Assembly (NCBI GenBank): GCA_902790495.1
Contig: CADASK010000014.1
Coordinates: 1-38,254 of the forward strand
Source: an uncultured Eubacteriales bacterium
GTDB taxonomy: Bacteria > Bacillota > Clostridia > Christensenellales > Aristaeellaceae
DNA length: 38,254 nt
Reading direction: 5' to 3'
Shown here: piece after piece, positions 10,258 to 21,834 of the stretch
Layout: each line of letters begins with the position of its first letter
How positions within the stretch are numbered: position 1 is the stretch's first letter
The notes under the pieces: model-generated
What the model was told of the DNA's origin: nothing
The model's database searches: none
Seen by the model: the letters and a program-made list of their open reading frames with translations, nothing else
Made by a program: the position numbers and the translations under genes

Positions 10258-10626
10258 TCAGAGATCGATTTGGGTCACCACATAGCCCGCCTGGCGCACC
10301 GCCTCGCACAGGGCGTTCTCGTCCGGCGGGGTTTTCGTGCGCACGGCGGCGCGGTGGCTGCCGATGTCGACCTTCGCCCACACGCCGTCCAGCCCGTTGA
10401 GGGCGTTCTCGACCCGGCGGGCGCAGTTCTCGCAGGTCATCCCGCCGATAGTTAGAGTGGCCTGATAGGGGTAGTGCGACCTGTCGCGGTCCTTTGCCCG
10501 CACCCGGGCGACGGCGGATTCACGCTCGCCGCAGCAGCCTCCGCCACGGCGCGCGCGGCGGATGGTCCGGTACGCGGCCCAGATCGCCACAACGGCCAGC
10601 GCCGCGATCAGCAGGAAGTTACTCAT
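10258..10626 (-). CDS. Membrane-anchored HMA-domain metal-binding protein
   Basis: A 122-residue protein with one N-terminal membrane helix (FLLIAALAVVAIWAAY), a basic Cys-containing linker (RRARRGGGCCGER), and a C-terminal heavy-metal-associated domain: ATLTIGGMTCENCARRV with the metal-binding MTCENC pair, then the fold-typical YVVTQIDL end. Its ATG overlaps the stop of the Cys-rich Feo peptide by four bases (ATGA). The domain usually binds Cu(I) or Zn; here its placement next to feoAB suggests metal handling linked to Feo, but metal specificity cannot be read. A free-standing membrane-tethered HMA in a Feo operon is less common. Confidence 0.88.
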   Translation of the reverse strand: MSNFLLIAALAVVAIWAAYRTIRRARRGGGCCGERESAVARVRAKDRDRSHYPYQATLTIGGMTCENCARRVENALNGLDGVWAKVDIGSHRAAVRTKTPPDENALCEAVRQAGYVVTQIDL

Positions 10627-10790: not shown

Positions 10791-13133
10791 TTACGCCATG
10801 CCGATGGCCAGGCCGACCAGGCGCATGATCAGCGCGCCGACCCAGGCCAGCAGGCACTGCCAGACCACGAGGGAGATGGCCCACTTGCCGCCCATCTCGC
10901 GTTTGACCGTGGCGATGGTGGCCACGCAGGGCGTGTAGAGCAGGCTGAAGACCAGCATGGAGGCCGCGGACAGCGCGCCGATGGAGGCCACGCCGCCTGC
11001 GAAGAGCATCTCCATCACGGACACGACGCTCTCCTTGGCCATGAAGCCGCTGATGAGGGAGGTCACGATGCGCCAGTCGCCCAGGCCGACGGGCCGCAGG
11101 ATGGGCGCGATGAAGCCGGAGATGACCGACAGGATGCTGTCCTCCGAGCTGGTGACCAGGTTGAAGCGGAAGTTGAAGCTCTGCAGGAACCAGACCACGA
11201 TGGTGGCGATCAGGATCACGGAGAAGGCGCGCTGCAGGAAGTCCTTGGCCTTCTCCCAGAGCAGCTGCAGCACGGAGCGCAGGCTCGGCATGCGGTAGTT
11301 CGGCAGCTCCATCACGAAGGGCACGGCCTCGCCCTTGAACAGGGTCTTCTTGTACAGCAGGGCTGCGAAAATCGCGGTGACGATGCCCAGCACGTACAGC
11401 CCCGTGGTGATCCACCAGCCGTTGCCGGGGAAGAAGGCGCTGGCGAAGAAGCCGTAGATCGGCACCTTCGCCGTGCAGCTCATGAAGGGGGTCAGGAGCA
11501 CGGTCATCTTTCGGTCGCGCTCGCTGGGCAGGGTGCGGGTGGACATCACGGCGGGCACCGAGCAGCCGAAGCCGATCAGCATGGGCACGATGCTGCGCCC
11601 GGACAGGCCGATCTTGCGCAGCAGCTTATCCATGAAGAAGGCCACGCGGGCGATGTAGCCGCTGTCCTCCAGCAGGGAGAGGAAGAAGAACATGGTCACG
11701 ACGATGGGCAGGAAGCTCAGCACGCTGCCCACGCCCTCGAAGATGCCCTTGAGCACCAGCTGCTGGATGGCGGGGTTGACGCTGCCGGCGGCCATGGCGC
11801 TCTCCACCACGCCCGCCAGAGCGTCGATGCCGGCCTGCATCAGATCCTGCAGAAAGGGCCCGATGAGATGGAAGGTCAGGTAGAACACGCAGGCCATGAT
11901 GGCGATGAACATGGGGATGGCCGTCCACCGGCCGGTCAGCACCCGGTCGAGCCTCTCGCTGCGCAGGTGCTCGCGGCTCTCGGCGGGCTTGGTCACGCAC
12001 TGGTCGCAGACCTTCCGGATGTAGGTGAAGCGCATATCGGCGATGGCGGCGCTGCGGTCCAGGCCGCGCTCCTTCTCCATCTGCAGCACGATGTGGTCCA
12101 GGGTCTCGCGCTCGTTCTGATCCAGGGCCAGCTGGCTGATGATCAGCTCGTCGCCCTCGATGCACTTGCTGGCGGCAAAGCGCACGGGCAAGCCGGCCTT
12201 CTCCGCGTGATCCTCGATCAGGTGGATGGTGGCGTGCAGGCAGCGGTGCACCGCGCCGCCGTGGTCGGTGCTGTCGCAGAAGTCCTGGCGCAGCGGCTTT
12301 TCCTGGTATTTGGCGATGTGCAGGGCGTGCCGCACCAGCTCGTCCACGCCTTCGTTCCTCGCCGCAGCGATGGGCACCACGGGCACGCCCAGCAGGGCCT
12401 CCATGGCATTGATGTCCACCGAGCCGCCGTTGCCGGTCATCTCGTCCATCATGTTGAGGGCCACCACGGTGGGGATGCCCATCTCCAGCACCTGCATGGT
12501 CAGGTAGAGGCTGCGCTCGATGCTGGTCACGTCCACGATGTTGATGATGGCCTTGGGCTTCTCCTGCAGCACGAAGTTGCGGGAGACCAGCTCCTCGCTG
12601 GAGTAGGGGGACATGGAGTAGATGCCGGGCAGGTCGGTGACCAGCGTGCCGCTGTGGCCGCGGATGGCGCCGTCCTTGCGGTCCACGGTGACGCCGGGGA
12701 AGTTGCCGACGTGCTGGTTGGCGCCGGTGAGCTGGTTGAAGAGGGTGGTCTTGCCGCTGTTCTGGTTCCCGATGAGGGCGAAGGTCAGCACCGTGCCCTC
12801 GGGCAGGGGATTGCCGCTGCCCTTGGGGTGGAATTTGCCCTCCTCGCCGAGGCCGGGGTGGGCGGAGGCCTTTCGGGGCGCGACCTTGGGGAGGGCGGCT
12901 TCCCGGGCCTGGATGGGTGTGACGGCGATGGTCTCGGCGTCCGCGAGCCGCAGTGTCAGCTCATAGCCGTGGATGCGGATCTCCAGCGGGTCGCCCAGGG
13001 GCGCGTGCTTCATCAGCGTCAGCTCGGCGCCGGGGAGGACGCCCATGTCCAGCAGGTGCTGCCGGAGCGCGCCCTCGCCGCCGATCTCCTCGATGCGTGC
13101 GGATTGACCGAGTTCCAAATCCTTGAGTGTCAT
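10791..13133 (-). CDS. feoB: Fused FeoA-FeoB ferrous iron transporter
   Basis: A 780-residue protein joining FeoA and FeoB. Residues 1-75 form a FeoA/SH3-like domain (LLDMGVLPGAELTLMKHAPL). After a linker the FeoB G domain begins: G1 GNQNSGKTT (about residue 122), G2 region NFPGVTV, G3 DLPG and G4 NMMD. The C-terminal half carries the FeoB membrane domain with the Gate motifs (LIGFGCSVPAVMSTR, FMSCTAKVPIYGF, LLYTPCVATIATVKRE). It imports Fe(II) across the inner membrane. The ATG overlaps the stop of the upstream actin-like gene by four bases (ATGA), with AAGGAC as ribosome site inside that gene. No Fur box could be assigned. Confidence 0.96.
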   Translation of the reverse strand: MTLKDLELGQSARIEEIGGEGALRQHLLDMGVLPGAELTLMKHAPLGDPLEIRIHGYELTLRLADAETIAVTPIQAREAALPKVAPRKASAHPGLGEEGKFHPKGSGNPLPEGTVLTFALIGNQNSGKTTLFNQLTGANQHVGNFPGVTVDRKDGAIRGHSGTLVTDLPGIYSMSPYSSEELVSRNFVLQEKPKAIINIVDVTSIERSLYLTMQVLEMGIPTVVALNMMDEMTGNGGSVDINAMEALLGVPVVPIAAARNEGVDELVRHALHIAKYQEKPLRQDFCDSTDHGGAVHRCLHATIHLIEDHAEKAGLPVRFAASKCIEGDELIISQLALDQNERETLDHIVLQMEKERGLDRSAAIADMRFTYIRKVCDQCVTKPAESREHLRSERLDRVLTGRWTAIPMFIAIMACVFYLTFHLIGPFLQDLMQAGIDALAGVVESAMAAGSVNPAIQQLVLKGIFEGVGSVLSFLPIVVTMFFFLSLLEDSGYIARVAFFMDKLLRKIGLSGRSIVPMLIGFGCSVPAVMSTRTLPSERDRKMTVLLTPFMSCTAKVPIYGFFASAFFPGNGWWITTGLYVLGIVTAIFAALLYKKTLFKGEAVPFVMELPNYRMPSLRSVLQLLWEKAKDFLQRAFSVILIATIVVWFLQSFNFRFNLVTSSEDSILSVISGFIAPILRPVGLGDWRIVTSLISGFMAKESVVSVMEMLFAGGVASIGALSAASMLVFSLLYTPCVATIATVKREMGGKWAISLVVWQCLLAWVGALIMRLVGLAIGMA

Positions 13134-16100
13134 GTATTCTGTCCTTTCTTGCTTGCCGCGACGGCGGTCTCACCGGCTGCGGCCTCCGAGGCCGCGAGGG
13201 CCGAGAGGCTTTCGCACAGCAGGGTGCCGATGGTATCCAGGAAGGCCTGCGCACCCGTGGTGGGATGGCGGCGCACAGCCGAGCGGATGCGCTCCTCCAT
13301 CTCCGGCATCAGGTAGCCGCCGGGGGCGAAGACGCCGGGGAAGAGCATGGCTGCCGCGCCGGGCAGCAGCAGGGCGAACTGCCGCAGGAACTGGGCCGCC
13401 ATCTCCTCGGTGGGAATCGGGGTGATGGGGCTGTCCAGCATGGGCGTCTCGCCGGGGCGCACCGAGGGATCACACAGACCCCGCACGGCCTCCAGCTTCG
13501 GCGCGTCCGTCAGCGCCAGGCGGAAGGCGCGCACCGGGTGGTTCATGTGCATGCCCACGCGCAGGAACGCAGTCAGCTGCATGCGTGTGCCGTCATCCAT
13601 GGCGGTGAGGGCGCGGCAGCCGCGGCCGAGCATCCACATGGGAAGCTCGCCGGGCAGGTGGCTGGACAGCATGCTGTCGCGCCGCAGGGCCTCCAGGGCC
13701 ATGCCGCCCACGGTGCACCGGGCCGCGAAGCTGAGCAGCAGCACGGCCTGGGCCCAGGTGCCCTGACCCGTCAGGTTCTTCTGGGCGAAGGCGGCCATGG
13801 TCTCGGGCATGTGGGCCCCGAAGAGGCGCTCCAGGCGCCAAGGCGCTTCGCCCGAGGGATCGGACGTGTTTGCCGCGGACGCGGCCAGGGCGCTGCCGGC
13901 CTCGCCCAGGTCGTCCGCCGCGCAGGCGGGCCGGGCGGTCAGAGCGCTGAGCAGATCGGTCATCACGCCGCCGCGCAGGCGCAGCTCCAGGGCGGGCCGA
14001 TCCATGCCGTAGAGCCATACGGCGACACCGGTGGAGGCCGCGCCGACGTCCAGCATCAGGAAGCTGGAGCCGGCCAGACCGCCGTTGCGCAGGGCGTGGG
14101 CCTCGGCCTGGGTCGCGCGCACGGCCTCCACAGCCTCGCCGGCGGCCAGGGGCAGGCCGGTCAGGCGCTCGGTCTGGGCGGCGCAGGCACGCAGGGTCTC
14201 GACGAAATCGACGGCCTGGTCGCCGTCCATGGCGGAGGGAATCGCGGCGCGCCAGCGGATGCCGATAGCCCCGTGCATCACCGCGTGGAAGCTGCACAGC
14301 AGCATCGCCTCCCGCAGCAGCAGGCGGCGGGCATTGCGGCCCGTGTCGTCCACGCGCCGGGTGAGGGGGAACACGGGCTGCTTCACGTCGCCCAGCTCCT
14401 CGGGGCAGATCCAGCCGTCCTCAAAGGGCTGGGGGTCGCCGCCCATCTCGCCGCGGGGCAGCACGGCGCTGGGCAGCACAGGCCCCAGGGGCCACACAGG
14501 CAGGGGCGTCAGCTCTGTGTTCGCCTCGCCGCCGCGCACCAGCACGCGCCAGAGGGACGGCATCTGGATCGGTTCGGCCTCGCCGCCGAAGGAGATAGCC
14601 AGGGTCACACCCGCGTCGCCCACGTCCAGGGCCACGGTCGCGATGCCGCGGTCGCCGGGATGGCAGAGGGCGGCGCGGCAGGGGAGCGCGCCGACGCTGC
14701 GGCCGTCGCGGCGCAGGGCCACGCACCAGGGGAAGCTGTCCGTGCGCACCAGGGCGTCCGGGCCGGTCGGCGCACACATCTCCCAGCTGTCACCGCGCAG
14801 GTAACGGATCTCCGCGCCTCGGGCGCTCAGATAGTAGGCGCGCCAGCGGCTGCGCTCCATGGGCACGGCGGGCCAGAGGGAAACCTCCGGGGCCGCGTCG
14901 GGGCGCTGGATCTCCTCGGGCCTGTAGTCGCGCACGCAGCGGACCAGGCCCTTGCCGCGCAGGGACAGGGAGGCCTCCACGTGGCCGGAGGCCCGGGCCT
15001 CGAAGCGGAAGCTGCCGATCTGCAGGCCCTCGTTCGTCCAGCCGGAGCGAGCGATGGCCTCCGTCAGCGCTTCGCTCAGGGGCGGCACGGCGGTGTAGGT
15101 GATCTCGCCGATGCGCACCAGGCAGTTCTGGCTGAGGGTCTCATCGCCCAAATCGCCGTCGCGCAGCAGCAGCAGGTTGTCGCTGAAGGGCTGGCACGCG
15201 GTCTGCGCCAGGCTGTCGCCGAGGCGCTCCCGCAGCAGCAGATGGATGGCGGGGCTGGTCTGCTCGTCCGCCACGGGGCAGGCGACGCTCAGCGGGCCCG
15301 CGGGCCGCAGGGCGCTCTCCTCGGCGCGGTGCTGCCAGGTCAGCACCAGCTCCCGGGCCTCCTGGCTGACGGTGCGCTCGGCGCCCTTGTCCCATTCGGC
15401 CAGGGTCTGGGCTTCCCGGCGCAGGAAGGGAAGGCTGTGCTTTTCCAGCAGGCGTAGCTCCCCGGCGAGGGCCTCCATGGTCTCCGCCTCACCCTCGCCG
15501 CCGTAGGGCTCCAGGCCGATGCGGCCGTTGTCCCGGGCGAAGGGCACCCCCCGCCAGAGCCAGACGCGGCCCTCCTCGGGGGCCGGCAGCAGCTCGCGCA
15601 GGGAGAAGGCCTGCAGCAGGGGATGGGTCAGCACCGGCATCACCGTGTCCTCGCGGGCCGTCAGCGCCTCGAAGCCCTTCAGCCCGCGCAGGCAGTGCAC
15701 CGCCTTGATGCGGGTCTGGTAGCGCCCGGCCTCCGCGCCGTGGAGGGAGGCCTCCGTGACCTCCTCCTCCCGGGCCTGCAGATCTTCCGCAAAGCGTCCG
15801 GCGGCGGGGCAGTCGCGCAGGGCCTTCAGCCGGGCGGTCAGCACCAGCCGCTCCCGGCGGCCCAGGGCGGGGATGGGATCGCTCCACTGCCCGGTCTCGC
15901 GGTCGAGCCAGGCGATCCGCCCGGGAATCAGCGGCAGTGCCCGGTCGATGCGGGCGGCCGGGATGACGCCCCAGGCCGGGTCGCACAGGCCGAGCACCTC
16001 CTCGCGGCCCTCCTCGCCGATGAGCGCCAGGCGCAGGCAGTCGCTGCCTGTGTCGGCCAGCACGGCGGTGGCCAGCGGGCTGTCCTCGGCATGGATGACG

Positions 16101-16384
16101 CGGACGGTCACCGGCGGGCAGTCGGGCCAGATGTCGCTGAGGAGCGTCACGGCCATCAGCCCGCGCCAGGCGGTCTCGTCGCCGGCGTCGAGGGAGGTGC
16201 GCAGCTCCTCCGCCACGGACAGGGGTGTCGGCGCGCCGGCGGCGACGGCATGGATGGCCTCGCCGGCCTCGCGCCAGAGCCGCTCCGCATCCTCCGCAAC
16301 CACCGGGCCGATGCCGGGGGCGAGGTCGGGGGTCAGGTCTTCATCGGGGAAAAAGAGAAATCCTTGTTTGATCGTGCCGGGCAT
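13130..16384 (-). CDS. Large protein with actin/Hsp70-like (ASKHA) ATPase core, unknown function
   Basis: A 1084-residue protein without signal peptide or membrane helix. The first 570 residues match no family that I recognise. From about 580 an ASKHA-type nucleotide-binding core is suggested by three motifs in correct order: phosphate-1-like VALDVGDAGVTLAISF (584-598), phosphate-2-like FLMLDVGAASTGVAVW (775-790), and adenosine-like MWMLGRGCRALTAM (916-929). The final 150 residues are mostly helical. The ATG at 16384 has GGGAGG upstream; the gene begins 33 bases after the tubulin-like gene and overlaps feoAB by ATGA. The fold call is by eye and needs structure prediction. The weak Pro/Gly substitutions in the motifs leave open that it binds but does not hydrolyse ATP. 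Confidence 0.7.
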   Translation of the reverse strand: MPGTIKQGFLFFPDEDLTPDLAPGIGPVVAEDAERLWREAGEAIHAVAAGAPTPLSVAEELRTSLDAGDETAWRGLMAVTLLSDIWPDCPPVTVRVIHAEDSPLATAVLADTGSDCLRLALIGEEGREEVLGLCDPAWGVIPAARIDRALPLIPGRIAWLDRETGQWSDPIPALGRRERLVLTARLKALRDCPAAGRFAEDLQAREEEVTEASLHGAEAGRYQTRIKAVHCLRGLKGFEALTAREDTVMPVLTHPLLQAFSLRELLPAPEEGRVWLWRGVPFARDNGRIGLEPYGGEGEAETMEALAGELRLLEKHSLPFLRREAQTLAEWDKGAERTVSQEARELVLTWQHRAEESALRPAGPLSVACPVADEQTSPAIHLLLRERLGDSLAQTACQPFSDNLLLLRDGDLGDETLSQNCLVRIGEITYTAVPPLSEALTEAIARSGWTNEGLQIGSFRFEARASGHVEASLSLRGKGLVRCVRDYRPEEIQRPDAAPEVSLWPAVPMERSRWRAYYLSARGAEIRYLRGDSWEMCAPTGPDALVRTDSFPWCVALRRDGRSVGALPCRAALCHPGDRGIATVALDVGDAGVTLAISFGGEAEPIQMPSLWRVLVRGGEANTELTPLPVWPLGPVLPSAVLPRGEMGGDPQPFEDGWICPEELGDVKQPVFPLTRRVDDTGRNARRLLLREAMLLCSFHAVMHGAIGIRWRAAIPSAMDGDQAVDFVETLRACAAQTERLTGLPLAAGEAVEAVRATQAEAHALRNGGLAGSSFLMLDVGAASTGVAVWLYGMDRPALELRLRGGVMTDLLSALTARPACAADDLGEAGSALAASAANTSDPSGEAPWRLERLFGAHMPETMAAFAQKNLTGQGTWAQAVLLLSFAARCTVGGMALEALRRDSMLSSHLPGELPMWMLGRGCRALTAMDDGTRMQLTAFLRVGMHMNHPVRAFRLALTDAPKLEAVRGLCDPSVRPGETPMLDSPITPIPTEEMAAQFLRQFALLLPGAAAMLFPGVFAPGGYLMPEMEERIRSAVRRHPTTGAQAFLDTIGTLLCESLSALAASEAAAGETAVAASKKGQNT

Positions 16385-16417
16385 GGGTTACCTCCCGATG
16401 GGATGGGACTGTGGGAC

Positions 16418-18313
16418 TCACGATTCGCGGGTGCCGCCGCAGCAGGCCAGCAGGTGATCCAGGAAGCGGGCGGGCGCGGGGCAGTCGCGCAGGGTGTCGT
16501 CGGGCAGGGAGACGGCCTCCCGCAGCGCTGTCAGCGGCTGTCGCGGCCAGGGCCAGCCCTGCTCCAGCTGCTGCAGGAGCTGCTTGCGGTCGCGGCCCTC
16601 CACGCGTTGCAGCTCCTGCAGGCCCTCCAGCCAGGCGGCGTCGAAGGGCGCGCGGCTGTCGGTAGGCATGCCTTCGGCTTCTGTGTCCAGTTGCGGGGGC
16701 TGCAGGCGCTTGTCGTCCGCCTGGGCCGCGCGCAGATCCTCGGCGGCGCGGGCGGTGCGCCCGTCCATGGCGGTCAGGTGGCGCGAGAGGCGCTCGAGCC
16801 TGGCGCGGGCCGCGTCCACCTTAGGCATCTCCTCCGCGGTGGCGACGAGGGCGGCGCGCTCGATGCGGCGCTGGGCCTCCTCGGCCTGGGCGCGGATGCC
16901 GTCGGCTTCCTCGGCGCAGGCGGTGACCGCCTCCTGCAGCATGGCGCGCCGGCCGCGTCCGCCCAGGCGCTGGCTCAGGCCGGCCTGGGTTTCCGTCGCG
17001 GCGTTCAGGGCGTCCTGCAGCTCGTTCATCTGCTTCACGGCGGCCTCTGACTCGCTGTCGGTCATGTCGTGGCGGTGGACGATCTTCTCGCGGCCCATGC
17101 CGCTGCGCTCCATCTCGGCGCGCACCAGGGCCAGCTGGCCCGCCAGCTCCAGCACCTCGCGGTACTGCTTCTCCGCCTCGCTCCGGGCCGCCTGCAGCCG
17201 GTCGGCGTCGCGCAGGGGCAGGGGCAGCGCCCTGCACAGCTGCGCCATCCAGGCGGTGTAGCTCCGTCCCAGACGCATGGCGGCGAGCAGGGCTTCCCGG
17301 TCCTCCTCGCGGGCCTCGGGCGTCTGCTTGCGCTCCAGGCCGAACCACGCGCCGTACCAGCCGGTGAGGCGGTCGCGCAGCCAGTTCGGGCTGGCGATCA
17401 TGCGGACGGCGGGCTCGCCGTACTCGGCCAGCAGCAGGTAGGCGGCCCGCAGCGCGCGTTCACAGCCGAAGCGCCAGCGCGGACCCTCGCTCTCGCCTAA
17501 GAGACTCCAGCGGAAGGCACCCTCGGGCGCGGCAAACAGCCTCGCGCCGCCCTCGCCGGCCAGCAGACCCGCCACGGCCCGGGCCGCCAGCAGGTGCACG
17601 AGATGGGCGGAGGGGCCTTCGCTCTCCGCCTCGCGGTAATCCTGGGGCAGGCCGATCATCCACAGCCGCTGGGCGGGAGCCCCCCGCGTGAGCAGGGTGG
17701 ATTTGCACAGACCGGCGTCGTCCCCCTGGGTGACGGGCAGCAGTACCACCGCGCCCACGGAGGGGCTGTCCCCGGCGCGGCGGCGGATCACCTCAGCGAT
17801 CTCCATCAGCGACGCGCCGGCGCTTCCCTCACACAGACTGCCGCAGAGGATGACCGTCTCGCTGTCCGGCCGTTCCTCGAGCCGCTGCAGGGCGTCGCCG
17901 AGGGCGCCGGTGGGCGGAGCGGCCAGCAGCGCCTTCCAGGTGAGGGCGGAGGCGGCGGGGGTGCCGCTGAGGCCGGGCTGCTCCTGGGCGTTCGCGTCCA
18001 GGAGGGCGTTGAGCAGCAGGCTGTCGTCGGGCTCCCGGCGCAGGGACGCCGGGGTCACACCGGCCCCGGTCTCGGGATAGGCGCAGATGGACAGGCGGGG
18101 GCCGAAGCCCTCGTGGACCTCGTTCCCAAAGCCCTCGCGCACCAGGGAGTAGTCCTCGACCAGGGTCTGCAGGCGCAGGGCGGACGCCTCGGGAACGCCG
18201 ATCAGGGTGAAGCGCAGGCGATCCGCGCCGATCAGCCCCACCGCGCACATGTGCGCCACGGCTTCCGCACAGCAGGCGCCCGCCTGTCCGAAGACCATCA
18301 GGGTTCCGTTCAT
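16418..18313 (-). CDS. Tubulin/FtsZ-like protein with C-terminal coiled coil, unknown function
   Basis: A 631-residue cytosolic protein. The N-terminus reads LMVFGQAGACCAEAV (residues 5-19), like the T1 loop of tubulin-family GTPases, and VILCGSLCEGSAGASLMEI (154-172) lies where the GGGTGSG (T4) loop would be, in degenerate form. Between and after these are alternating strands (LRFTLIGVP, VGAVVLLPV, LWMIGLP), then a helical region, and a heptad-rich charged coiled coil at about 370-560. The ATG at 18313 follows AGGACAGGAG; the 41-codon extension upstream enters the galE terminator and is rejected. First gene of the run leading to feoAB. An alternative is a Rossmann-type protein that only resembles tubulin; the family call is an inference. 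Confidence 0.65.
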   Translation of the reverse strand: MNGTLMVFGQAGACCAEAVAHMCAVGLIGADRLRFTLIGVPEASALRLQTLVEDYSLVREGFGNEVHEGFGPRLSICAYPETGAGVTPASLRREPDDSLLLNALLDANAQEQPGLSGTPAASALTWKALLAAPPTGALGDALQRLEERPDSETVILCGSLCEGSAGASLMEIAEVIRRRAGDSPSVGAVVLLPVTQGDDAGLCKSTLLTRGAPAQRLWMIGLPQDYREAESEGPSAHLVHLLAARAVAGLLAGEGGARLFAAPEGAFRWSLLGESEGPRWRFGCERALRAAYLLLAEYGEPAVRMIASPNWLRDRLTGWYGAWFGLERKQTPEAREEDREALLAAMRLGRSYTAWMAQLCRALPLPLRDADRLQAARSEAEKQYREVLELAGQLALVRAEMERSGMGREKIVHRHDMTDSESEAAVKQMNELQDALNAATETQAGLSQRLGGRGRRAMLQEAVTACAEEADGIRAQAEEAQRRIERAALVATAEEMPKVDAARARLERLSRHLTAMDGRTARAAEDLRAAQADDKRLQPPQLDTEAEGMPTDSRAPFDAAWLEGLQELQRVEGRDRKQLLQQLEQGWPWPRQPLTALREAVSLPDDTLRDCPAPARFLDHLLACCGGTRES

Positions 18314-18343: not shown

Positions 18344-18375
18344 AAAAGCGCGACGGCTTCTCACAGCCGCCGCGC
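18344..18375 (-). terminator. Rho-independent terminator after galE
   Basis: On the minus strand an 11-bp stem (GCGCGGCGGCT with AGCCGTCGCGC, one G-U pair) is followed by TTTTAT. It lies six bases after galE and only 30 bases before the tubulin-like gene, leaving almost no room for a separate promoter between them. Confidence 0.75.
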
Positions 18376-18381
18376 GGAAAT

Positions 18382-19398
18382 TCAGCCCTTGTATCCGTTG
18401 GGATTCATGGTCTGCCAGCGCCAGGCGTCGCGGCACATGTCCTCCAGGTTGCGCTCGGCTTTCCAGCCCAGCAGGGCCTCCGCCTTGGCGGGGTCGGCAT
18501 AGCAGGCGTCCACGTCGCCGGGGCGGCGGTCGGTGATCACATAGGGCACCTTCACGCCGTTGGCCTTCTCGAAGGCGTTCACGATATCCAGCACGCTGTA
18601 GCCGATGCCCGTGCCGAGGTTGATGATCTCGCAGCCGGTGTGCTGAGCGGCGTAGGCGCAGGCGTCCACGTGACCCTTGGCCAGATCCACCACGTGGATG
18701 TAGTCGCGCACGCCGGTGCCGTCGTGGGTCGCGTAGTCGTTACCGAACACCGAGAGGTGATCCAGCTGGCCCGCGGCCACCTTGGTGATGTAGGGCATCA
18801 GGTTGTTGGGGATGCCGTTGGGGTTCTCGCCGATGCGGCCGCTCTCGTGGGCGCCGATGGGGTTGAAGTACCGCAGCAGCACCACGCTCCACTCGGGGTC
18901 GGCCTCGACGATGCCGCCCAGGATCTTCTCGATCATGTACTTCGTCCAGCCGTAGGGGTTGGTACAGCCCTTGCAGAACATGTCCTCGCGCAGCGGCACC
19001 TCGTCCGGCACGCCGTACACGGTGGCGGAGGAGGAGAAGACGATGCGCTTCACCCCGTGGCGCTCCATGGTCTCGCAGAGGGTGAGGGTGGAGTCGAGGT
19101 TGTTGCGGTAGTAGCGCAGGGGCTGATGCACGCTTTCGCCGACGGCCTTCAGTCCGGCAAAGTGGATCACGGCGTCGATCTCGTTCTCGCTGAAAATGCG
19201 CTCCATCGCCTCAGCGTCGCACACGTCGGCGGTGTAGCTCTTCACGGGCATGCCGCCCAGCTCCTCCACACGGCGAAGGGCTTCGGGCTGGCTGTTGACG
19301 TAGTTATCCACGACGATGACGTGATGGCCTGCTTTCATCAGCTCCACGCAGGTGTGCGAGCCGATGAAGCCCGCGCCGCCGGTTGTCAGAATGTTCAT
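18382..19398 (-). CDS. galE: UDP-glucose 4-epimerase
   Basis: A 338-residue cytosolic short-chain dehydrogenase-type enzyme that interconverts UDP-glucose and UDP-galactose. Seen: NAD-binding ILTTGGAGFIGSHTC at the N-terminus, FAGLKAVGES, the catalytic Ser region FSSSATVYG, the YGWTKYMIE (YxxxK) active site, and the substrate segment GTGVRDYIHVVDLA. Normal length. The start at 19398 has GGGAGG upstream; a longer frame to 19452 is not supported. It follows the nucleotidyltransferase gene by 81 bases and is the last gene of the polysaccharide-precursor operon. Confidence 0.96.
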   Translation of the reverse strand: MNILTTGGAGFIGSHTCVELMKAGHHVIVVDNYVNSQPEALRRVEELGGMPVKSYTADVCDAEAMERIFSENEIDAVIHFAGLKAVGESVHQPLRYYRNNLDSTLTLCETMERHGVKRIVFSSSATVYGVPDEVPLREDMFCKGCTNPYGWTKYMIEKILGGIVEADPEWSVVLLRYFNPIGAHESGRIGENPNGIPNNLMPYITKVAAGQLDHLSVFGNDYATHDGTGVRDYIHVVDLAKGHVDACAYAAQHTGCEIINLGTGIGYSVLDIVNAFEKANGVKVPYVITDRRPGDVDACYADPAKAEALLGWKAERNLEDMCRDAWRWQTMNPNGYKG

Positions 19399-19479
19399 GA
19401 TGGATGTATCCTCCCATACAATGCTTTGCGAGGGTTCAGCGCCCGCAGGCACGCCGCCTTATTCAGCAGACTGTTGATT

Positions 19480-20382
19480 TTAGAGTCTCTCCGGATACGC
19501 GCCGGCGTCGTGGAGCTTCTTGAGCTCGGCGGCGACGGTGGCCTTGTCCTCGCGGTAGGTCACGCCGAACCACACGGCGTGGGTGTTCAGCACGTCCACC
19601 GTGAGGTGCTCCTCGTGCATCAGCTGGTCGACCAGGGTCGGCAGCACGTACTCGCACTTGAGGGGGTTGTCGTGCTCCTCGCGCAGGAAGCGCGTGAGGT
19701 ACTTCTCCGCCGCGGGGAAGAAGCCGGGCGTGAAGCCCCAGAAGTTCATGCTCACAGGCGCGTCGGGATCCAGCGCCACGCCCTCGTCGCTGCCGGCGTA
19801 GTCGCGGATGCCGCCCTGGCCGTCGGGCTTGATCTTGTAGGTCTCCGTGACCTTTACCAGATGGCGGTTTTCGTCCACCTCGCACACGCCGCGGGTCACC
19901 GTACCGTTTTCGGAGACGGTGTTCTTCAGATCGTAGGCGACCATGGAGGCGGCCAGCTCCTGACCGGCCATCCCGTGCAGGGACGCGGCCATGGCGGTGA
20001 AGGCGTCCTTGCCGTAGTAGTCGTCGGCGTTGATCACGGCGAAGGGCTCGTGGATCACGTCCCTGGCGCAGAGCACGGCGTGCACCGTGCCGTAGGGCTT
20101 GGTGCGGCCCTCCGGCGGCACAAAGCCGTCCGGCAGGCTGTCGTACTCCTGGAAGGCGTAGGCCACGTTCGCCTTGGCGGCGATCTTGTCGCCGATCTTC
20201 TCGCGGAAGAGCGTCTCCATGCTCTTCTTGATGACGAACACAACCTTGTCGAAGCCGGCTTCGAGGGCGTCGTGGATGGAGTATTCCATCAGAATCTCGC
20301 CGTTGGGGCCGATGCCGTCGATCTGTTTGTTGCCGCCGTAGCGCGAGCCAAGGCCGGCGGCCATGATCAGCAGAGTTGTCAT
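19480..20382 (-). CDS. Sugar-phosphate nucleotidyltransferase family protein
   Basis: A 300-residue protein of the nucleotidyltransferase fold (GlmU/RmlA/GalU-like). The signature LLIMAAGLGSRYGGNKQ is at the N-terminus, the metal-binding Asp pair in AVINADDYYG at about residue 110, and the product-site region SMNFWGFTPGFF further on. No left-handed beta-helix acetyltransferase domain is present. The start at 20382 has AGGAG upstream. It lies between a sugar-lipid phosphotransferase and galE, so it probably makes a nucleotide sugar for surface polysaccharide; which sugar and nucleotide is not determinable. It differs from classical GalU in length and motif detail. Confidence 0.85.
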   Translation of the reverse strand: MTTLLIMAAGLGSRYGGNKQIDGIGPNGEILMEYSIHDALEAGFDKVVFVIKKSMETLFREKIGDKIAAKANVAYAFQEYDSLPDGFVPPEGRTKPYGTVHAVLCARDVIHEPFAVINADDYYGKDAFTAMAASLHGMAGQELAASMVAYDLKNTVSENGTVTRGVCEVDENRHLVKVTETYKIKPDGQGGIRDYAGSDEGVALDPDAPVSMNFWGFTPGFFPAAEKYLTRFLREEHDNPLKCEYVLPTLVDQLMHEEHLTVDVLNTHAVWFGVTYREDKATVAAELKKLHDAGAYPERL

Positions 20383-20401
20383 AGTTAAGTCTCCTAATCT
20401 A

Positions 20402-21763
20402 TTATTTCTCAAACCCTTCGGTAGAGTCCTTTTTGAAGATCACCGTGAAGGTGCGGAACAGCAGCCGCACGTCGCTCCAGAGGGAGAAGCTCTCGATGTA
20501 CATCAGGTCGAGCATCAACTTGTCCTCGGGGGTCGTGTTGTATTTGCCCTCGATCTGGGCGTAGCCGGTCAGGCCGGCCTTCATCTTTTCGCGGTAGACG
20601 AAGGTGGGCAGCTCCATCTTGTATTTCTCCACGTTGGCCAGCATCTCAGGCCGCGGCCCCACCAGGGTCATGTCGCCCAGGAGGATGTTCCAGAACTGAG
20701 GCAGCTCGTCCAGCCGGGTGCGCCTGAGGAACGCGCCCACCTTCGTGATGCGGTCGTCGTCGGTGGTGGCGGAGTGCTCCGGCTCGCCGGTCTGCACGCG
20801 CATGGTGCGGAACTTGTGGATGGTGAAGGGATGGCCGCCCACCGTCATGCGCTTCTGCTTGAAGATGGCGGGCCCGCCGTCCTCCGCGTGCACCGCGATG
20901 GCGATGGCCAGCAGCACGGGGGAGAGCACGATGAGCACCAGCGCGGAGATGAAGATGTCCATCAGCCGCTTCACGATGCGCTGGGAGAGCGTCATCTTGT
21001 GGTAGTCCATCTCCAGGAAGGGCGCGTCGTCCACCACCATGGGCGCGGAGGAGGAGAGCATGATGTCCTGCAGCTGGGCCTTGCAGAGCACGTCCCGGTG
21101 CAGGTCATAGCAGGTTTTCAGGAGCGACATGCGCCGCGCGTCCGGCACGTCCGACATCACGACGATCTCGGCCCGGTCGATGCGCTTGTCAAGATCAGCC
21201 TCATCCGCGAGGGCGACGTCCGTCACCTTCCACTGCAGGGCGTAGCGGTCCAGCTTGCGCTGGATAGGCGCGCGCTCCTCCGCCGAGCCGAGCACCAGCA
21301 GGCAGCGGCGCGGGGGATAGAGGTGGAAATACAGCTTGTTGCCCCAGCGCACCATCAGCACGATCCACACGCACTGGGCGATGAGGGTCAGCAGCAGCCA
21401 CAGGGCGTCCACGCCGAAAAGCCGCAGATGGGCGTAGCGGTTCTCGTTCACGTTCATGATCTGCAGCTGGAGGTAGGTGACCAGATCCACGCAGACCACG
21501 GCCAGCGCCATGCTGGAGATGATGGGCTTGTTCTTCTTGCGCCCCACATCGTAGCCGCCGTAGACCGCCTTCATCGCCAGGGTCATCGCCGACCAGGTCA
21601 GGGCGGTGGTGGCCAGGGTACGGCTCAGGTGCCGCAGCGGCCAGTTCTGGATGCTCATCAGTCCGAAAAAGAGCAGCGTCAGCCCGGCGTAGGCCAGAAA
21701 TCGCATCAGACCCACCAGAAGCTCCTCCCGGTGGCGCGTGATCCGCTGCCATGGTGTGCGCAT
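20402..21763 (-). CDS. Undecaprenyl-phosphate sugar phosphotransferase (WcaJ/EpsL-like)
   Basis: A 453-residue membrane enzyme that starts exopolysaccharide or capsule repeat units by moving a sugar-1-phosphate onto undecaprenyl phosphate. Seen: four N-terminal membrane helices (FLAYAGLTLLFFGLM to LWLLLTLIAQCVWIVLMV), a middle Rossmann-like domain, a fifth membrane segment (FISALVLIVLSPVLLAIAIAV), and the catalytic domain with KQKRMTVGGHPFTIHKFRTM, LRRTRLDELPQFWNIL and DMTLVGPRPEM. The start at 21763 lies 43 bases from a consensus promoter. No flippase, polymerase or glycosyltransferase genes are next to it, so the polysaccharide cluster is incomplete in this window. Confidence 0.94.
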   Translation of the reverse strand: MRTPWQRITRHREELLVGLMRFLAYAGLTLLFFGLMSIQNWPLRHLSRTLATTALTWSAMTLAMKAVYGGYDVGRKKNKPIISSMALAVVCVDLVTYLQLQIMNVNENRYAHLRLFGVDALWLLLTLIAQCVWIVLMVRWGNKLYFHLYPPRRCLLVLGSAEERAPIQRKLDRYALQWKVTDVALADEADLDKRIDRAEIVVMSDVPDARRMSLLKTCYDLHRDVLCKAQLQDIMLSSSAPMVVDDAPFLEMDYHKMTLSQRIVKRLMDIFISALVLIVLSPVLLAIAIAVHAEDGGPAIFKQKRMTVGGHPFTIHKFRTMRVQTGEPEHSATTDDDRITKVGAFLRRTRLDELPQFWNILLGDMTLVGPRPEMLANVEKYKMELPTFVYREKMKAGLTGYAQIEGKYNTTPEDKLMLDLMYIESFSLWSDVRLLFRTFTVIFKKDSTEGFEK

Positions 21764-21805: not shown

Positions 21806-21834
21806 ATGATACCACGGGCGGCGGGACGTGTCAA
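21806..21834 (-). promoter_or_regulatory. Sigma-70 promoter of the sugar phosphotransferase operon
   Basis: Minus-strand -35 TTGACA (21829-21834), 17-base spacer and -10 TATCAT (21806-21811). The predicted leader is about 36 bases. The site is in the short gap after the XRE gene. Confidence 0.8.

Follow-up and report, generated by a model that had tools for sequence, protein, structure and literature searches.

Two adjoining genes and their predicted folds

The window considered here, that is the whole stretch of DNA that was analysed (38,254 nucleotides; contig CADASK010000014.1 of GenBank assembly GCA_902790495.1, from an uncultured Eubacteriales bacterium of the family Aristaeellaceae), carries on its minus strand two neighbouring genes predicted to encode a tubulin-fold and an actin-fold protein, labelled TUB and ACT throughout (Table 1). 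TUB lies upstream and is separated from ACT by 33 bases (16385-16417). A preliminary description, made from the sequence alone, had listed the sizes of the two genes, this short gap, T1- and T4-like loops in TUB, three ordered ASKHA motifs in ACT and an ATGA overlap between ACT and the iron-transport gene that follows, all of which were confirmed in the sequence. Neither protein has a Pfam or NCBIfam match reaching its cut-off, and what lies below threshold is coiled-coil noise; the SMC-like and Mod_r matches of the TUB coiled coil are at noise level and were set aside. SrfB was considered as an identity for ACT and rejected, no Pfam SrfB match being obtained at E<=1 and none for the window protein at E<=10.

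AlphaFold2 models of both proteins were built from 75-row alignments that include motif-keeping relatives, so that the models are not independent of them; the alignments omit the actin-like pieces of loci L044, L047 and L051 and the tubulin-like pieces of L127, which are broken or cut by contig ends. The TUB model (631 residues) has a predicted local distance difference test score (pLDDT) of 92.4 and a predicted template modelling score (pTM) of 0.91; the corresponding values for ACT (1084 residues) are 91.2 and 0.81. When searched against the PDB with Foldseek, the TUB model returned, among the 50 matches listed, nearly exclusively FtsZ, CetZ, TubZ and tubulin, together with one pore toxin, with probabilities of 0.69-1.00 and low TM-scores. 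The ACT model returned 331 matches at E<=1e-3, headed by MamK, a chain of the INO80 complex, actin, MreB and BeeR, over alignments spanning about 420-480 columns. Foldseek gave no ranges and the domain border of ACT was set from motif positions; since the ASKHA motifs occupy residues 585-923, the fold match would fall in the C-terminal half of the protein. In the predicted models TUB has a tubulin/FtsZ fold and ACT an actin/ASKHA fold; the matches agree with the tubulin and actin classes that the preliminary description had read from the motifs, and its long coiled coil appears in the TUB model as confident long helices.

Table 1. Coordinates of TUB, ACT and neighbouring features in the window
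Feature	Position	Strand	Remarks
TUB	16418..18313	minus	631 aa; FtsZ/tubulin-like domain N-terminal, then long helical (coiled-coil) region
ACT	13130..16384	minus	1084 aa; N-terminal region of ~570 residues, then ASKHA-motif part
T1-like loop FGQAGACC	18269..18292	minus	TUB residues 8-15; IGGTGNK in canonical relatives
T4-like signature GSLCEGSAGAS	17810..17842	minus	TUB residues 158-168; GSIFGGTGASG in canonical relatives
TUB long-helix / coiled-coil region	16724..17488	minus	residues about 276-530, from the predicted model
ASKHA phosphate-1 motif ALDVGDAG	14609..14632	minus	LDVGDAG from ACT residue 586; Asp587 kept
ASKHA phosphate-2 motif MLDVGAAST	14030..14056	minus	LDVGAAST from ACT residue 778; Asp779 kept, AA instead of GG
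Adenosine motif MLGRGC	13616..13633	minus	LGRG from ACT residue 919
FeoA-FeoB fusion	10791..13133	minus	Pfam; start overlaps ACT stop by ATGA
GalE-like epimerase	18382..19452	minus	upstream of TUB
Nucleotidyltransferase	19480..20412	minus	habitual upstream neighbour at GalE-bearing loci
Bacterial sugar transferase PF02397	20402..21763	minus	habitual upstream neighbour at GalE-bearing loci
Promoter-like TTGACA-17-TATCAT (11/12)	21806..21834	minus	ahead of the sugar transferase; pattern match only
Terminator-like hairpin	18348..18375	minus	between GalE and TUB; pattern match only

Pairing, distribution and natural fusion

When 60 related genomes were searched with the single proteins, 14 gave a tubulin-like and 17 an actin-like match; the three additional genomes (G024, G025 and G057) hold both genes once profiles are applied. 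Profile searches extended over 250 genomes of the same family placed each protein in 88 genomes, and these are the same 88. In 86 of them the two genes are adjacent on a single contig, a count taken from the best match rows of all 88 genomes with weaker secondary rows excluded; the pairing suspected in the preliminary description is thereby borne out as a conserved one. In 85 genomes the best matches lie on one contig and less than 3 kb apart, while the 86th, G158, has its matches on contig C44 at a distance of 3066 bases, with genes that overlap by 4 bases (its other pair is split across two contig ends). Of the remaining two genomes, G234 has its genes divided between the ends of two contigs, and G101 is taken up below. 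Counted by genus, the pair is present in 13 of 50 sampled genera. Two loci, L089 (G158, contig C44) and L090 (G244, contig C63), are second, strongly diverged tubulin-actin pairs of genomes that have a first pair as well, and so represent coexisting paralogous systems.

Outside the family of the window the pair is rare. In a sample of the order, the actin-like profile matched 14 of 297 genomes: nine from the window's family (the window genome included), one marginal, and four clear matches from two other families (G038, G057, G296 and G412). A sample of the class gave six matches in 341 genomes, namely the window genome, two clear (G600 and G782) and three marginal ones, and a sample of the phylum gave 22 in 249, namely the window genome, one clear match (G1088) and 20 weak ones, the latter aligning the phosphate-2 region with frames of 346-463 residues that, at a guess, are FtsA. 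A tubulin-like gene stands immediately upstream in six of the seven clear distant matches (in two pieces in G600); in the seventh, G038, the contig is 4 kb long and stops where the gene starts. Five records of cyanobacterial plasmids carry both genes, with canonical nucleotide motifs. A phage origin was rejected, as tblastn with two actin-like queries gave no match in 50,697 phage records, a scan that excluded IMG/VR.

In one genus, g51, the two proteins are a single chain: both matches lie in one open frame of 1589-1828 residues in 18 of the 18 matching genomes, the only ones that this count covers, seven of which were examined as loci, one being cut by a contig end. Searching GTDB contigs with the fused proteins yielded 24 named loci, a set that overlaps with that of g51; in 23 a single open frame matches both profiles (a contig end truncates one of these frames) and the 24th is a contig-end fragment. 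These loci are labelled Clostridia, Clostridiales or Lachnospiraceae and come mostly from metagenome-assembled genomes, many of them from ruminant guts. A natural fusion of tubulin-like and actin-like halves within one genus is strong evolutionary evidence that the two work as one machine. It also offers a one-chain, 1:1 object for structural work on members of the two great filament families. Elsewhere, in genome G139 (genus g15), an 896-residue frame (L196:4136-6826) joins a motif-keeping tubulin-like part to the N-terminal region of ACT without the actin domain; either the fusion took place independently a second time or the gene is broken.

Nucleotide motifs, family membership and selection

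Many relatives hold canonical nucleotide motifs (GGTG, GSIFGGTGASG, DFGxxxT, DIGGGTxD and GNG) in the same alignment columns in which the window proteins are eroded. The GGGTG(S/T)G signature of guanosine triphosphate (GTP) binding is absent from TUB, which has GSLCEGSAGAS instead, and all members of the window's genus lack the tubulin GGTG T4 signature; the genus has also lost the ASKHA double glycine. ACT keeps the order of the ASKHA motifs and both aspartates, Asp587 and Asp779; the glycines lost in the window are canonical in relatives. In the fused genus the tubulin signature is lost as well, but several members retain the ASKHA motifs in large part. A tree of 73 loci, made by a quick method and with long branches present, places the window among the eroded rows. 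The state of T4 (GGTG kept or not) and that of phosphate-2 are concordant in 67 of the 73 loci, a pattern only, as independent-pair tests cannot reach significance for co-erosion.

These losses bear on the proposal, made in the preliminary description, that the pair forms a complex driven by nucleoside triphosphates (NTP). An NTP-driven cytomotive filament or switch, in which TUB would bind GTP and ACT would bind adenosine triphosphate to give dynamic polymers, is consistent with the GGTG/GSIFGGTGASG and DFGxxxT/DIGGGTxD/GNG motifs of the motif-keeping members, with the persistence of the two aspartates in the window copy and with the presence of MamK, MreB, BeeR and FtsZ among the PDB matches. 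Against it stand the loss of the tubulin signature in both the window genus and the fused genus and of the ASKHA double glycine in the former; because of these losses cycling is unlikely in the window copy, even if it was ancestral, and we consider the filament reading unlikely. The NTP-driven part of the proposal is thus weakened for the window copy, in which the T1/T4 signature is lost and the phosphate-2 glycines are replaced, and retains the two aspartates in its favour; some residual nucleotide binding by ACT is possible.

Despite the eroded motifs, the resemblance of TUB and ACT to the two families is more than chance. Profiles built from the window's genus only (11 tubulin-like and 10 actin-like rows) recovered, at E<=1e-3, 36 of 40 tubulin-like and 39 of 40 actin-like targets from GGTG loci, two cyanobacterial ones included, and no reversed decoy at E<=10. 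The tubulin-like profile reached the Gloeothece tubulin at E 4.4e-11, and the latter clears the PF13809 (Tubulin_2) model with 40.8 bits vs a cut-off of 27; the Picosynechococcus tubulin stays below it (19.0). TUB itself has no match to the PF13809 model, and its link to that family is indirect, by way of the Gloeothece tubulin; of the 17 aligned relatives 4 match PF13809 and 4 match PF00091, those seen singly remaining below the cut-offs. By hhalign, with alignments (A1 and A2) that hold three motif-keeping rows, the window pair matches the adjoining Gloeothece plasmid genes at 99.5% each; the first of these is annotated 'tubulin-like' and the second 'hypothetical'. On the actin side, the ACT-type protein of Picosynechococcus matches FtsA (4.8e-5) and MreB (1e-3), both below cut-off, and one Clostridial relative matches MreB (0.0024), so that the sequence profiles agree weakly with the predicted folds. 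The best explanation places the pair in the Tubulin_2 (FtsZl1) family, as a branch that has diverged and that has its own dedicated partner of the actin fold. The window genome has one PF00091 match elsewhere, presumably its FtsZ, and the pair is therefore not taken to be its division tubulin.

The FtsZl1 family was described in 2010 as having an N-terminal FtsZ domain and an extended coiled coil, encoded in operons mostly with a von Willebrand factor A (vWA) gene, and was predicted to act in 'membrane remodelling' (Makarova and Koonin, PMC2875224); a 2023 study equated it with PF13809 (PMC9871819). The likeness extends to the FtsZ-like N-terminal domain, the GGTG of motif-keeping relatives, the coiled coil, coexistence with the cell's own FtsZ, and neighbours that are a lipoprotein (vWA-like by eye) and a membrane protein; the difference is that TUB is not found by the Pfam model. 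The main text of PMC2875224 names no actin-fold partner and mentions no fusion, its unlabelled families A and B standing in supplements outside this comparison. Among the papers listed, in a literature coverage that excluded subscription papers and those supplements, no description of a conserved bacterial tubulin-actin gene pair or of a natural fusion was found. The impression of the preliminary description that no described system has this combination thus holds in part: the tubulin partner belongs to the known Tubulin_2/FtsZl1 family (PMC2875224) and a cluster of the same domain order has been studied in Synechocystis (PMC9880817), while what looks new is the conserved actin partner, together with the natural fusion. 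The pair would supply a concrete partner for the 2010 prediction.

Loss of motifs could also mark a decaying relic, a pseudogene on its way out. To this one may count the eroded motifs themselves, the actin-like gene of G013 (another genus), which has in-frame stops, and G002, a genome of the same genus (66% complete) that has neither gene. The ratios of nonsynonymous to synonymous substitution rates (dN/dS) against the nearest relative, 74-76% identical, are 0.31 for the tubulin-like and 0.27 for the actin-like gene (GalE, taken as a yardstick, gives 0.09), and thus both proteins are maintained. Both predicted folds are confident, and full-length open frames of both genes are found in nine of ten same-genus loci, the tenth (G003) being cut by a contig end; stop flags in G006, G010 and G011 left same-genus frames unbroken. 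Decay is thus highly improbable. At L047, the G013 locus, the actin-like gene is in open pieces split by in-frame TAG stops beside an open tubulin-like frame, which may be decay or recoding. The series of natural forms from canonical to motif-less allows one to ask how a cytoskeletal protein acts once its nucleotide switch is gone.

A candidate scaffold at the cell surface

FtsZ and FtsA are a tubulin-fold and an actin-fold protein that cooperate at the membrane. By analogy, TUB and ACT would make up a single complex at the membrane's inner face, with TUB as the scaffold and ACT as the actin-fold adaptor, and this complex would organise cell-surface machinery; departures from the FtsZ-FtsA arrangement are the additional N-terminal region of ACT and the coiled coil carried by TUB. 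The reading that we favour, and hold to be somewhat better than evenly supported, is that TUB and ACT form an obligate scaffold of the FtsZ/FtsA kind that serves cell-surface machinery and that, in the window, is probably static or cycles slowly. In its motif-keeping form the complex would be linked to the envelope through a lipoprotein, a small membrane protein and membrane-anchored coiled coils, features recognised by eye. In the lineage of the window these envelope partners are not adjoining, the pair stands behind genes for glycan precursors and the GTP signature is lost; for these reasons the window pair would probably be a static or slowly cycling scaffold, probably serving a surface-glycan or pilus-like apparatus. 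A bolder version, possible but to our minds short of even chances, is that many bacteria carry a second tubulin-actin partnership beside FtsZ-FtsA, fused in g51 with a signature-less tubulin half, and turned in the window genus into a 'pseudo-cytoskeleton' that scaffolds glycan or pilus machinery without filament cycling, both partners, though still under selection, having lost canonical motifs.

The analogy with a pilus-related function comes from Synechocystis, where Sll0445 (Tubulin_2), Sll0446 (FtsA domain) and Sll0447 (DivIC domain) are reported to associate with photosystems and with two pilus proteins, Slr2015 and Slr2018, and where each of the interruption mutants of sll0445, sll0446 and sll0447 has impaired phototaxis and altered photosystem II fluorescence (PMC9880817). 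The unit sll0443-sll0449 served as a target of CRP (PMC2633013), mutation of lexA raises several genes of the unit (PMC4759255), and a comFB mutant with pilus defects shows deregulated Sll0445 and Sll0446 (PMC12313861). Adjoining Tubulin_2, FtsA-domain and DivIC-domain genes occur with the same domains and order at the Gloeothece pair, FtsA and DivIC being below cut-off there. With this order of domains a cyanobacterial cluster serves pilus-based motility, and sll0445-0447 offers a testable model cluster. The Synechocystis cluster differs in its photosynthetic host and separate genes, and no DivIC-type coiled-coil gene stands next to the window pair.

Several observations weigh against the scaffold reading. 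The link to Synechocystis is one of domain order only, and a role in pilus-based motility may not extend to the window pair. In the window genome there is a single T2SSE ATPase match, judged PilT-like by eye, and a gene that likewise looks PilC-like, with no second T2SSE match such as PilB. The complex implied by pairing and fusion is a predicted one. The Foldseek E values of the TUB model are weak (best 0.012, none at 0.001), and the co-erosion of the two motif sets is not significant, as the minimum numbers of tree changes, 3 and 7, make few independent events. G101, as assembled, is the one real exception to adjacency: contig C61 has the actin-like gene in its interior and no tubulin-like gene in the 20 kb that were read around that gene, the tubulin-like gene being at the start of another contig, C57. 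Finally, 10 of the 42 loci of the neighbourhood survey have neither a lipoprotein nor GalE upstream. The two G101 loci (L201:8516-11671, actin-like; L204:219-1700, tubulin-like) may reflect a real separation or an assembly join. At L195 (window genome, contig C1), the PilT-like ATPase stands beside a response-regulator/GGDEF-type protein and a PilC/GspF-like gene (by eye), perhaps a partial type IV pilus set.

The neighbourhood survey, made by single-query blastp, found GalE, usually with the nucleotidyltransferase and the sugar transferase, upstream on the same strand in 19 of the 42 loci and a lipoprotein upstream in 13, the two never together. These lipoproteins share a lipobox and, by eye, a vWA-like motif (DGSGS in Gloeothece, DGTPS or less in Clostridia); the vWA identity, seen by eye, was not retained, as there is no Pfam vWA match. 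The vWA gene of Tubulin_2/FtsZl1 operons does not adjoin the window pair. In the window, the promoter-like site before the sugar transferase and the terminator-like hairpin between GalE and TUB leave the transcription unit of the pair uncertain. At L091, L092, L093 and L094 a conserved cassette is formed by a lipoprotein, a small membrane protein, the tubulin-like and actin-like genes and a membrane coiled coil, followed at some of these loci by one or two further exported proteins (by eye) without a Pfam family.

A rival reading as a chaperone-like or conflict (defence) system, of the type that combines GTPase, tubulin and HSP70, would recall the firmicute components with tubulin-coiled-coil, vWA and HSP70 parts described by Kaur et al. 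in 2020 (PMC7159879), in which bacterial tubulin-coiled-coil genes occur with vWA genes and HSP70 in other variants; the A2 profile also matches Hsp70 weakly (best E 0.021). In that paper, however, the tubulin and HSP70 themes do not overlap, and the systems are built around DO-GTPase, GAP1 and FNIII genes. Inspection of the listed neighbours by eye showed none of these, nor a GAP1-like gene or a TRAFAC GTPase, no profile search having been made; no substrate-binding domain was recognised, and PADLOC gave nothing on the window pair beyond one match at E 2.4. Such a system is improbable here.

The ATGA overlap with FeoAB had led the preliminary description to tie expression of the pair to Fe(II) uptake, and a scaffold or regulator of this uptake is one alternative reading. 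FeoAB, however, follows the pair at only one of the 36 loci with at least 3.3 kb downstream, that of the window, and is absent within 5.1 kb downstream in the closest relative (74-76% identity). The tie is not borne out, conserved feoB linkage as an Fe(II)-uptake accessory was rejected, and this alternative, largely refuted, is barely credible; the pair probably has its link with the cell surface and not with iron uptake. Two neighbours may be added: after FeoAB, positions 10258-10626 (minus strand) of the window encode a small protein with a heavy-metal-associated (HMA) domain and an N-terminal segment resembling FeoB-associated Cys-rich membrane proteins (below cut-off), and downstream of the distant pair of G057 lies a 1369-residue protein (L050, 2401-6510) with Sel1 repeats and an NPCBM domain.

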